Origin: a bacterium
GTDB lineage: Bacteria > NPL-UPA2 > JAUVJM01
Assembly: GCA_030606215.1 (NCBI GenBank)
Contig: JAUWGW010000020.1
Location: 1-30,156 of the forward strand
DNA length: 30,156 nt
Direction of reading: 5' to 3'
Position numbers and translations under genes: made by a program
Part shown: one piece after another, positions 1,420 through 12,867 of the stretch
Layout of the letters: the number at the start of each line of letters is the position of its first letter
How positions within the stretch are numbered: the first letter of the stretch is position 1
The notes under the pieces: model-generated
What the model was told of the DNA's origin: nothing
Database searches by the model: none
The model's input: the letters and a program-made list of their open reading frames with translations, nothing else

Positions 1420-2322
1420 ATGTCTGAACTAAATGGGATACTCATTATTAAGAAAGAACGGGGGATGACTTCTCACGATGTAGTTGCGGAAGTCAGGAAG
1501 ATTTTACATACAAGAAAAGTTGGGCATACCGGCACTCTTGACCCGGATGCAACCGGAGTTCTGCCTGTATGTGTGGGCAGGGCAACCAAACTATCGCAAT
1601 TCTTTCTGTCTTCTGACAAGGAATATGAGGCGACGTTGGTTTTGGGTATAAGAACGGATACTCAGGATTCCACCGGGAATATTGTTTCGGAAGTTAAGGA
1701 GCTGAATTTTGGGGAGAAAGAAGTTCAGGAAGTTTTCTCTAAACTTACAGGCGAGATACAGCAAATTCCTCCAATGGTATCAGCCGTCAGATATAAAGGC
1801 AGGAGACTTTATGAGCTGGCGAGAAAGGGTGAGGAAGTTGAAAGGGAACCAAGAAAAGTTCAGATTTTCAATTTGGAGATTTTAAGTTGCCAGATTCCCA
1901 GAATTCGTTTCAGAGTTGTATGTTCCAAAGGAACCTATATCAGAACGTTGTGTGCGGATATAGGGGATATGCTTGGCTGCGGCGCGCACCAGGCTGAGTT
2001 AACGCGGCTCAGGTCAGGTCTGTTCAGGTTGGGTGATTCAGTAACTTTAAAAGAGCTAAGGGAGTTGCCCAATCCCGGGGAGAGAATAATTCCACCTGAT
2101 GCGGCACTTTCACACCTTCCATCTGTGGAGGTCAGGGATTGGTTCGGGGAAGTTATGAAGAAAAATACTCTGCTTTCAGGTGTTGGTGTTGCCGGGTTGC
2201 CTGAGAGGTTGAAGACAGGGGAGTTTGTCAGAATCAGTAATTCAAGGGGAGAGCTGCTTGCAATTGGTGTGGTGGAAGCAGGTGCTGGAGTTAAAGTAGC
2301 TTGGATCCATAACAACAGGTGA
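1420..2322 (+). CDS. truB: tRNA pseudouridine(55) synthase TruB
   Basis: TruB converts uridine 55 in the T-arm of tRNA to pseudouridine. The protein has 300 residues, the usual bacterial size. The family signature HTGTLDPDATGVLPV is at about residues 36-50, with the catalytic aspartate at D41. Further motifs are KxYxATL-like 'KEYEATLVLGIRTDTQD', 'QIPPMVSAVRYKGRRLYELAR' split across residues 112-133, and 'CSKGTYIRTL' near 169. The C-terminal part looks like a PUA domain (GEFVRISNSRGELLAIG). The ATG at 1420 has only a weak Shine-Dalgarno sequence. The stop overlaps the ribF GTG start by 4 bp (GTGA), implying translational coupling. The order truB-ribF-rpsO-pnp is a common bacterial translation/RNA-processing cluster. 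Confidence 0.97.
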   Translation: MSELNGILIIKKERGMTSHDVVAEVRKILHTRKVGHTGTLDPDATGVLPVCVGRATKLSQFFLSSDKEYEATLVLGIRTDTQDSTGNIVSEVKELNFGEKEVQEVFSKLTGEIQQIPPMVSAVRYKGRRLYELARKGEEVEREPRKVQIFNLEILSCQIPRIRFRVVCSKGTYIRTLCADIGDMLGCGAHQAELTRLRSGLFRLGDSVTLKELRELPNPGERIIPPDAALSHLPSVEVRDWFGEVMKKNTLLSGVGVAGLPERLKTGEFVRISNSRGELLAIGVVEAGAGVKVAWIHNNR

Positions 2323-3335
2323 GGGGTGAGTTGGAAGTCATTCGCGGTCCTGGCAAATCCGGGAAAAAGTTTCAAGAAACTGTTGCGACAATCGGCGCCT
2401 TTGACGGAGTTCATATAGGACATCAGAAAATTATCAGAGAGGTGACTGAGTCTGCGGAGGAGTCAGGGGGAAGGAGTGTTGTAGTTACTTTTGACCCCCA
2501 TCCTTCGAAAATTGTTGCTGATGCACCGGTCCCGGTTCTGCTAAGTTTACCAGGAAAAATTAATCTTCTAAGAGAGCTCGGAATAGAAGTATGTCTTATT
2601 GTCAATTTCAATCGTAAATTTTCACATCTTTCCCCGCAGGATTTCATCAGGGAAATTCTGGTAGATTATTTGAAAGTGCGTGTTGTCATAATCGGTTACA
2701 ACTATGTTTTCGGGAAAGATAGGAAAGGAAATGCAGGGCTTTTATCAGAAATGGGGAGTAAATATGGATTCAGTGTGAGACAAATTGAACCTGTAAAAGT
2801 TGGGAGTGAGGTTGTAAGCAGCACGAGAATAAGAGAGCTTGTGGGAAAGGGAGATTTTGTAAAGGCAAATTCTTTTCTCGGCCGCCCGTATGAAATAACT
2901 GGCAAAGTTGAAAAAGGGGAGGCAAGAGGACGCATTATCGGTTTTCCAACAGCGAACATTGATATTCCTTATGGATTATTACCTCCGCCTGGAGTATATG
3001 CTGGATTTACGGTTATTGGGGGCGAGAAGTATAGAGCAGGTCTTAGTCTTGGTTATAGACCGACATTTAGTCCAGATGAGGACAAAGCAAGCTTTGCCAC
3101 TACGGGTATAGCAGCCGAGCTTGCTCGGCCAAAGGCAAAAGGTGGAGCGCCAATAGCGGAAGTCCATATACTTGACTTTAACGGCAGTATCTACGGTGAA
3201 GAACTTACATTTTATTTCCTGAGAAAGATAAGGGATGAAATTGCTTTTTCAAATCCGGATGAATTGAAAAGGCAGATTGAGAAAGACATTGAGAAAGTTA
3301 GGACTTTACAACCAACTGTTTCTGTATTAGAATAA
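2319..3335 (+). CDS. ribF: Bifunctional riboflavin kinase / FAD synthetase RibF
   Basis: RibF phosphorylates riboflavin to FMN and adenylylates FMN to FAD in the cytoplasm. The N-terminal nucleotidyltransferase domain shows GAFDGVHIGH (His32/His35), TFDPHPSKI and SSTRIREL. The C-terminal flavokinase domain shows GKVEKGEARGRIIGFPTAN, with the Thr-Ala-Asn of the ATP/Mg site, and EVHILDFNGSIYGEEL. Length is 338 aa, about 25-30 longer than usual. The excess is largely one insert of about 22 residues (bases 3084-3149) between RPTFSPDED and PIAEVHILDF, where the family normally runs almost directly from one to the other. The insert DNA is a palindromic repeat seen again just downstream. GTG 2319 overlaps the truB stop; TTG 2331 is an alternative start, but GAGGGGTGAG lies very close to it. 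Confidence 0.95.
   Translation: MRGELEVIRGPGKSGKKFQETVATIGAFDGVHIGHQKIIREVTESAEESGGRSVVVTFDPHPSKIVADAPVPVLLSLPGKINLLRELGIEVCLIVNFNRKFSHLSPQDFIREILVDYLKVRVVIIGYNYVFGKDRKGNAGLLSEMGSKYGFSVRQIEPVKVGSEVVSSTRIRELVGKGDFVKANSFLGRPYEITGKVEKGEARGRIIGFPTANIDIPYGLLPPPGVYAGFTVIGGEKYRAGLSLGYRPTFSPDEDKASFATTGIAAELARPKAKGGAPIAEVHILDFNGSIYGEELTFYFLRKIRDEIAFSNPDELKRQIEKDIEKVRTLQPTVSVLE
3083..3149 (+). repeat. Palindromic repeat built in frame into ribF
   Basis: Two small perfect palindromes lie in tandem: CAAAGC-AA-GCTTTG (3083-3096) and GCCGAGC-TT-GCTCGGC (3114-3129). The 21 bases 3083-3103, ending in GCCACTAC, are identical to 3390-3410 in the ribF-rpsO gap. It is read as 22 extra residues (KASFATTGIAAELARPKAKG plus GA) in the flavokinase domain, with the frame preserved. 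Confidence 0.8.
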
Positions 3336-3351
3336 ATTAGGATTAAAAATT

Positions 3352-3410
3352 GTAGTGGCTGAGATTGCTCGGCAGTGGTTCGCTAAGGGCAAAGCAAGCT
3401 TTGCCACTAC
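3352..3410. repeat. 59-bp palindromic repeat with GTAGTGGC / GCCACTAC ends
   Basis: The termini are perfect 8-bp inverted repeats (3352-3359 and 3403-3410). The interior carries hairpin-forming GCTGAGATTGCTCGGC and GGCAAAGCAAGCTTTGCC segments. It shares 21 exact bases with the ribF insert and its GTAGTGGC end with 10371-10378. It lies between ribF and rpsO. Confidence 0.75.
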
Positions 3411-10370: not shown

Positions 10371-10411
10371 GTAGTGGCAGCCCCTGCTTGCGCAGGGGTT
10401 GCTCTGCTGAA
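10371..10411. repeat. Palindromic repeat with GTAGTGGC end
   Basis: GTAGTGGC at 10371-10378 is the same end as the 3352 element. It is followed by a strong hairpin, CCCCTGC (10381-10387) pairing with GCAGGGG (10392-10398) around TTGC. It lies 10 bp after the recA stop and may serve as a transcript 3' end, but no T-run follows. Confidence 0.6.
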
Positions 10412-10935: not shown

Positions 10936-11303
10936 CAACTTTTTCCCCGGAACTTTATCTACAAAGAATTTATCCTTGAATGTATCTGTAGTGAATATCA
11001 GCGGCTCAGGCAGCCCTTCTTCTCTAATAAACTCTTTAAATCCTCGTATTCTTTCCATGTCCCTCCATCCCGCATTAAGTTCAGGTATTTTTCTTCTTCT
11101 CTCGGTGAATCATCAGTGATATAGATAATTATTTCTAACCCATGGTTCATGGCTTCTTTTTGAATAGATGTTAATAAGCAGGAGAAGAAAGGGGTGAGAG
11201 AATTGAATATTATCCCAACAGTATCGGTTTTTCTTGTGACAAGGGTTCGTGCACTTTTACTGGGAACATAATTATACTTTTCAATTAGGTCTAGAACCTT
11301 CCA
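10918..11303 (-). pseudogene. Decayed LacI-family transcriptional regulator
   Basis: Minus-strand translation in one frame (11303 to 10998) gives WKVLDLIEKYNYVPSKSART followed by LVTRKTDTVGIIF. This is the end of a LacI headpiece and hinge, running into the first strand of a periplasmic-binding-like sensor domain. It continues with a DDSPREEEKYLNLM segment typical of LacI proteins. A second frame (about 11060 to 10918) gives MERIRGFKEFIREEGLPEPL, the 'RxxGFxxAL' segment that normally lies about 100 residues further along. The helix-turn-helix start, the middle of the sensor and the C-terminus are missing, and a frameshift joins the two parts. This region has no other gene. Former role: sugar-responsive repressor. 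Confidence 0.7.
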
Positions 11304-11386
11304 AGTGCAGAGAAGGGAATGGCTACTTCCAAAACCCGTTTGTCATCCATATCCTTCCAATTATTCAGAGTTCCGTTCACCAGTAC

Positions 11387-11415
11387 TTGACAAAGGAGAG
11401 AGCCCAGTGTATATT
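11387..11415 (+). promoter_or_regulatory. Near-consensus promoter for the abiE operon
   Basis: TTGACA (11387-11392), a 17-base spacer and TATATT (11410-11415) lie 38 bases before the preferred AbiEi ATG at 11453. GTGT...ACAC flanks the -10 region, but I see no strong operator palindrome. Confidence 0.6.
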
Positions 11416-11452
11416 TATATCAATAACACCCATAAAAATAGGTATAACAGAC

Positions 11453-12079
11453 ATGAAGTATGGAGATTTTTTAACTACAATTAGAAAAAACAGAATTTAT
11501 ATCTTTACCGCGGATGAGTTATCAAGATACTTTCCTGATTCTGCAATGAAGACTATCCAAAATCAAATTCAGGTATGGGTGGAACGAGGATTATTATTTA
11601 GGCTTAAGCGAGGAGTTTATAAAATTCAGTTCCCTGAAGGCGGTCCCGATCTGCCGGATCTGTATATTGCCAACAGGCTTTATGAACCATCGTATGTTTC
11701 GTTAGAGACTGCATTGTCTTTTTATAGTCTAATTCCTGAAGTGGCCGCTGAAGTTACTTCAGTAACAACTCGTCAGACGAAGTTGTTCCGGAATGAATTT
11801 GGCAGTTTTAAATATAGTTCATGCAAAAATGAAGCCTATTGTGGTTATAAAATTATGCTTTATGAGAATTTTAAGATTTATGTTGCCGAAAAGGAAAAAG
11901 CACTCGTAGATTTTGTATATTTTAAACATAGATACGGAGAAAAAATTGATGTAGACGCAGAGCGTTTTGATAAGGAAAAATTAAACGAATGCTCATGGAA
12001 CAAAGTCTTTCATTACGCCGCTATTTATAATAAGAAGACATTGTCAGTGCTAAAGAGGATTAGGGAAGGATTAAGATGA
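11453..12079 (+). CDS. abiEi: AbiEi-type antitoxin / transcriptional regulator
   Basis: In AbiE systems, AbiEi counteracts the nucleotidyltransferase AbiEii without direct binding (type IV) and represses the operon. Residues about 1-60 look like a winged helix (DFLTTIRKNRIYIFTADELS, QIQVWVERGLLFRLKRGVYK). The next part shows the family pattern LYEPSYVSLETALSFYSLIP, TSVTTRQTK and the YVAEKEKALVDFVYF segment. Length from ATG 11453 is 208 residues. The open frame extends to 11249, but that stretch reads as non-coding and contains the promoter, so the internal ATG is preferred. It overlaps abiEii by 4 bp (ATGA). Confidence 0.85.
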   Translation: MKYGDFLTTIRKNRIYIFTADELSRYFPDSAMKTIQNQIQVWVERGLLFRLKRGVYKIQFPEGGPDLPDLYIANRLYEPSYVSLETALSFYSLIPEVAAEVTSVTTRQTKLFRNEFGSFKYSSCKNEAYCGYKIMLYENFKIYVAEKEKALVDFVYFKHRYGEKIDVDAERFDKEKLNECSWNKVFHYAAIYNKKTLSVLKRIREGLR

Positions 12080-12867
12080 TTACCTTAGATTCCTTAATGG
12101 AAGAAGCCCAACGTCTCAGTCTGCCGTTACACAAAAAACGTGCTATCTTAAGAGAGTATCTTCAGGTGCTAATGCTTAATGCTATCTATAAACATAAGCT
12201 TGGGAACAAGATGTATTTTATGGGCGGGACTGCATTGAGGTTTTTCTATAAACTTCCGAGATTTTCCGAAGATTTAGATTTTAATGCAAAAGGATTGTCC
12301 AGTGAAGAATTTGATTCTTTGTTAGATGTTGTCGGAGTATCTTTAAAAAATGAGGGCTTTGAGGTTAGTATAAGAAGGAAAGATATTTATGATGTATATT
12401 CTGCCAGGATTGGTTTTAGGTCTGTGATGAAAAATTTTGGATTGGTTGACCAGAGAGGAGAAGATATTGTTATCAAGATAGAAACAAACAATCCCGTCTG
12501 GCAAATGAAATATGAGCCCATGGCTCTTTCTGCTTTTGGTCTTCTGTTCACGGCTCTACTAATGGATAAAGGGTCGTTTCTTGCCGAGAAATCCCATGCC
12601 TTTATCCGTAGATGTAGAGGCAGGGATATTTATGACGTGTTATTTATGCTGCGTCTTAAATTTCCTCTTGATAAAAAGATGTTCTCAGCAAAAAAAATCA
12701 AAGGTAATCCTAAAGAGATGTTGCTGGATAAATTTAGAAATTTGAAGGAAGATGACCTTAAAAGATTAGCCAAGCAGGTGAGACCCTTTTTATTTAAGGA
12801 AGGTGAAGTTGAATTAGTTGAAAAAGCGTCCTTTTATGGACAAGAATTACTGAAGAATTATAGATAG
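12076..12867 (+). CDS. abiEii: AbiEii-type nucleotidyltransferase toxin
   Basis: AbiEii/DUF1814 proteins are minimal nucleotidyltransferases that halt growth, in characterised members by modifying tRNA, and they protect the population from phage. The 263-residue protein has the GG[ST]xxR-type motif MGGTALRFFY (Gly50-Gly51-Thr52) and RFSEDLDF with the metal-binding Asp66 and Asp68. A downstream EPMALSAFGLLFTALLMDK segment and RCRGRDIYDVLFML carry the usual basic and acidic residues. All these positions appear intact, so it should be active. It is the second gene of an operon with AbiEi (ATGA overlap). It sits beside a degraded toxin-antitoxin unit in a region that looks like a variable island. 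Confidence 0.87.
   Translation: MITLDSLMEEAQRLSLPLHKKRAILREYLQVLMLNAIYKHKLGNKMYFMGGTALRFFYKLPRFSEDLDFNAKGLSSEEFDSLLDVVGVSLKNEGFEVSIRRKDIYDVYSARIGFRSVMKNFGLVDQRGEDIVIKIETNNPVWQMKYEPMALSAFGLLFTALLMDKGSFLAEKSHAFIRRCRGRDIYDVLFMLRLKFPLDKKMFSAKKIKGNPKEMLLDKFRNLKEDDLKRLAKQVRPFLFKEGEVELVEKASFYGQELLKNYR

Follow-up and report, generated by a model that had tools for sequence, protein, structure and literature searches.

Is a palindromic repeat that lies within a coding region a mobile element accommodated as new protein sequence, and if so, to which kind of element does it belong? The question arises from the window, a 30,156-nucleotide contig of a bacterium of the NPL-UPA2 lineage, in which ribF contains two palindromes and the gap between ribF and rpsO contains a related sequence. 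A preliminary description had proposed that the element was tolerated in frame as 22 extra residues of RibF, in the manner of the Rickettsia palindromic elements. The gene concerned is as follows.

2319-3335, + strand: ribF, bifunctional riboflavin kinase/FAD synthetase; ORF intact, carrying an insert of about 20 residues (about K256-A277)

The ribF reading frame is open straight through the insert and the motifs on both sides (GYRPTF and the glutamate) are intact, as had been proposed. The insert itself is real. Against RibF of a same-family relative (G001) it measures 20 residues; against the Pfam Flavokinase model, on which 143 residues align to 122 positions, it measures about 21. Both values approach the 22 first given. 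It was absent from RibF in 8 of the 8 phylum-mates searched, G001 included; the relatives thus lack the residues altogether, rather than encoding the same residues with unrelated codons, a pattern that had been named as evidence against insertion. At the junction, the window's RibF reads TFSPDEDK-(20 residues)-PIAEVHI where that of G001 reads TFGSTESK-DPAAEVHI. This nearest relative, whose RibF is 59% identical, is too diverged for a base-by-base reading of an empty site or a target-site duplication (the MITE criterion); an exact empty site would need a very close relative, and none exists.

Alignment with homologues placed the insert after GYRPTF and before the catalytic glutamate (E281), in a loop whose length differs among relatives. 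In the numbering of the Corynebacterium ammoniagenes enzyme (CaFADS), it falls between the motif at 254-260 and E268 (by alignment, residues counted by hand), and replacing E268 with alanine in that enzyme abolished production of both FMN and FAD (PMC2573891). A structure predicted for RibF with one extra homologue had a kinase-domain pLDDT near 25 and was left unused, the placement coming from the alignment and the CaFADS literature. RibF gave a single match in the window's genome; a separate scan of genome contigs returned only four RibFs, all of them distant.

The insert resolves into short repeat units of the REP type, and a further pair of units lies in the ribF-rpsO gap:

3082-3103, - strand: REP 1 of ribF; its GTAG tail reads as CTAC on the + strand at 3100-3103; CAAAG/CTTTG stem with CAAG loop
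3108-3129, + strand: REP 2 of ribF, tail to tail with REP 1; intact GCCGAG/CTCGGC stem with CTTG loop
3130-3142, + strand: probable REP-dimer remnant CAAAGGCAAAAGG in ribF, assigned by eye against G001 dimers
3352-3410, no strand assigned: head-to-head, BIME-like REP dimer of 59 bp in the ribF-rpsO gap, with GTAGTGGC/GCCACTAC ends; REP at 3352-3373 (+), spacer at 3374-3388, REP at 3389-3410 (-)

Both small palindromes in ribF have perfect stems and 4-nt loops (CAAAG-CAAG-CTTTG at 3083-3096 and GCCGAG-CTTG-CTCGGC at 3114-3129). The 21 bp of CAAAGCAAGCTTTGCCACTAC, whose end is GCCACTAC, occur without a difference in ribF (3083-3103) and in the gap (3390-3410); the longer match between the two has 24/25 identity. 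REP 1 has lost its outermost stem pair (A3082) and has one mismatch to the family pattern; the tail of REP 2 is worn to ATAGCA, with two mismatches. To the right of REP 2, CAAAGGCAAAAGG resembles the spacer and second-arm start found in head-to-head dimers (CGGCtaaaggGCAAAG in one G001 example) and is probably a remnant of one. Read in this way, insert bases 3083-3142 break down into REP 1 (-), GG, REP 2 (+) and the probable remnant. The 59-bp extent and the ends reported for the gap element hold, and when folded as single-stranded DNA the element beats 200 of 200 shuffles (z -3.35). The ribF copy and the gap element are not the same unit: the gap carries a head-to-head dimer, whereas ribF carries a tail-to-tail pair and a short remnant.

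Further copies were located by pattern searches of G000, the window's genome, whose 34 contigs total 1.52 Mb at 92.9% completeness. With up to 3 mismatches allowed, the 17-mer core gave 18 matches versus 0 for the reversed control, and the family pattern GTAGTNGCNNAGMTTGCTNNGC gave 21 versus 2 in the control. Thirteen of these 21 matches, at nine loci, are convincing copies, a low number for REPs, and three genes contain copies in frame; the 21-bp match recurs elsewhere in the genome, its absence having been the other proposed sign against the insertion. One match (C22:66791, L136), inside a frame resembling that of a regulator, appears fortuitous. G001 yielded 87 pattern matches versus 6 in the control, or about 80 copies at about 51 loci. 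Phylum-mates of other families were near background, with the exception of G008, which has a perfect dimer, and G005, which has a few copies. An intergenic REP on C26 of G000 and one on C4 of G001 were considered as an orthologous pair and rejected, the copies being oppositely oriented.

The family unit is about 22 nt long, 5'-GTAG-T-N-[6-bp stem, 4-nt loop]. Across 23 aligned variant sequences, hand-picked from the copies so that their number reflects the variety of types and not independent events, the GTAG tail is invariant, being worn (to ATAG) in ribF REP 2 only. Stem cells are 98.6% paired, with 14 double-sided changes, a result that 0 of 500 shuffles reached and that slid versions fell far below; two stem pairs vary on both sides (A-T/G-C/C-G/T-A). 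Units are joined head to head at 3352-3410 and on C13, tail to tail in ribF and in tandem (HT) at locus L129. Before an apparent carB gene, a REP lies immediately upstream (L134:2994-3015), and by eye the preceding gene seems to take its TAG stop from the GTAG tail of this REP. A likely relative also occurs further along the window:

10371-10407, + strand: likely degenerate REP relative directly after recA, GTAGTGGCAG-[CCCCTGCTTGCGCAGGGG]-TTGCTCTGC, assigned by eye

This element is headed by GTAGTGGC and has a second hairpin nested in the REP loop. Beyond it, two adjoining frames at 11249-12867 resemble, from their translations alone, an AbiEi/AbiEii-type pair of antitoxin and nucleotidyltransferase toxin.

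Six of the nine loci in the window's genome are intergenic and three are in frame within genes, as judged by open frames and the codon usage of the flanks, not by full annotation. Besides the tail-to-tail pair of ribF, there is one REP in asd (aspartate-semialdehyde dehydrogenase) and two tandem REPs in frame (REAKQSLRLQAGEGEAEQALQLQQG) in L129, which encodes a 215-residue predicted secreted protein whose homologues are too weak to reveal an empty site. In asd and L129 the REP-encoded reading is of AKQALPL type; in ribF it is KASFATT. Four of the five genic REPs have CTAC on the coding strand, an orientation that for this variant has no stop in any frame; in the fifth, ribF REP 2 with its worn tail, the frame used contains no TAG.

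G000 and G001 share the asd insert, of about 9 residues, which the six other Asd sequences found all lack; Asd has a single match in G000 and its motifs are kept. In these two genera the REP sits at the same codon (L091:2996-3017 and L133:3067-3088) and is identical at 20 of 22 nt, the two differences being partners in a single stem pair (GCAAAG..CTTTGC vs GCAGAG..CTCTGC). Outside the REP, half of the same-residue codons are identical, and 7% of 22-nt windows elsewhere in asd also reach 20/22. The shared palindrome is compatible with common descent and compensation, with gene conversion and with a second insertion alike. Among the roughly 51 loci of G001, asd is the only clear internal genic case. 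An ABC transporter protein of G001 may also begin with a REP-encoded N-terminal extension (MSKVHSGVEQALPLLAAENLTKSF; L107:2914-3681). The genic share of loci is therefore 3/9 in G000 versus 1-2 of about 51 in G001 (Fisher p 0.009-0.02, an unplanned test).

GTAG-tagged REPs have been described in several phyla, mostly in intergenic positions and with dimers in three orders, and in-frame genic copies coding for 20-30 residues were already reported in 2013 (Di Nocera et al. 2013; PMC3733652). The window family shares with them the unpaired terminal GTAG, a covarying stem of 6 bp (within the 6-13 bp range of such REPs), a short loop of 4 nt, dispersal, head-to-head, tail-to-tail and tandem dimers, a mostly intergenic placement and some dimers translated in frame. 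It differs in its own stem and CTTG-type loop, its few copies and the lack of a RAYT found alongside. Paired inverted REPs spanning 50-60 bp, with an outer GTAG at each end, likewise recall BIMEs/REPINs, which are mobilised by RAYT (PMC2817692, PMC3116915), whereas no cognate RAYT flanked by window-family REPs was found in G000 or at the relatives' loci examined. By their sequence features, we class the window elements as a GTAG-tagged REP/BIME family, and the insertion as a kind of event already described.

RAYT transposases are the presumed movers of GTAG REPs. REPtrons can be lost (PMC3733652). Neither PF01797 nor NF047646 detected a RAYT in the 92.9% complete assembly of G000, where no tyrosine transposase flanked by REPs, the mark of a REP/RAYT system (REPtron), was found; nor was a cognate RAYT flanked by these REPs found in the relatives' loci examined. 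One weak PF01797/RAYT-type match was obtained in G001 (46 bits vs a cut-off of 80). The gene that gave it, a RAYT-like transposase gene (L127:8-748), has a 10-bp inverted repeat, CGGGGACATA, on its two flanks in place of GTAG hairpins, and resembles the TIR-flanked type of PMC3733652; a GTAG hairpin was nearby at 0 of the 9 RAYT-family loci examined. The missing RAYT of G000 could reflect either loss or a gap in the incomplete assembly. With none found in G000 and that of G001 flanked by another repeat, RAYT-type single-strand transposition is only a presumed means by which the copies moved.

Several other accounts of the ribF insert deserve consideration. Kinship with the rickettsial elements, a family specialised in in-frame genic insertion, would explain a palindromic repeat found in frame in several unrelated genes, and the copies in ribF, asd and L129 do share with the Rickettsia elements their translation in frame inside genes, housekeeping genes among them. 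RPE-4 and RPE-6, however, belong to another superfamily, tagged CGTC (PMC3733652), and the tail of the window family is GTAG, which refutes membership and makes GTAG REP/BIME the right family. The lineage also differs, intergenic copies dominate (nearly all in G001), and the inserts are read in differing frames, so that we regard such kinship as highly improbable; the parallel with RPE-1, RPE-4 and RPE-6 stands as a fair analogy that named the wrong family. A second account dispenses with mobile insertion, the RibF loop having grown by slippage or local duplication and its likeness to the repeat arising by chance or by copying from the gap. The sister element lies about 250 bp downstream, template switching between hairpins is possible, and the near-identity of the longer match would follow. 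But REP 2 of ribF, with its GCCGAG stem, is closer to copies elsewhere (C13:112828) than to those of the gap (TGAGAT), and two other genes have inserts with no copy in the neighbouring gap, and we consider local copying unlikely.

Selection might instead have kept the genic palindromes, through a beneficial RibF loop or an mRNA or DNA hairpin acting in regulation or RNA stability. The asd REP, conserved at one codon in two genera with both differences on a single base pair and more alike than the surrounding codons, favours this reading, as does the higher genic share in G000, within the limits of an unplanned test. Yet asd is a single case whose identity other windows of the gene also attain, its pattern could also stem from a second insertion or from another copy acting through gene conversion, and the tail of ribF REP 2 is worn; beneficial inserts seem to us about as unlikely as local copying. 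Slightly less doubtful, if still speculative, is a combined proposal in which paired changes, by selection or gene conversion, kept the asd REP palindromic across two genera and, the REP transposase having been lost, surviving REPs became enriched in frame in essential genes, coding constraint preserving fossils of an extinct element.

Insertion of a GTAG REP into ribF, with translation in frame, and likewise in asd and the predicted secreted protein, is very probably the correct explanation. A small GTAG-tagged REP family, often paired as BIME-like dimers, is dispersed in the window's genome and its relatives, and in this lineage one REP insertion of about 60 bp would have struck ribF in its flavokinase half. 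Because its length is a multiple of three and it holds no in-frame stop, it is translated as about 20 extra residues within the variable loop before E281; RibF appears to have stayed functional, and the insert is presumably neutral rather than useful. The asd and L129 genes followed the same course. The central proposal of the preliminary description, that a repeated palindrome was tolerated in frame as new protein, is supported by its absence in relatives, the dispersed family, the two other genic cases and the single-match ribF with its motifs kept.

The ribF case leaves the picture of what REPs are unchanged, and it extends the range of GTAG REPs to a sparsely sampled phylum. It also supplies clear-cut examples of protein sequence derived from REPs in single-match enzymes that are probably essential; one of these examples is conserved between two genera. 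With examples of this kind it becomes possible to test whether selection shapes the peptides that REPs encode or leaves them neutral.
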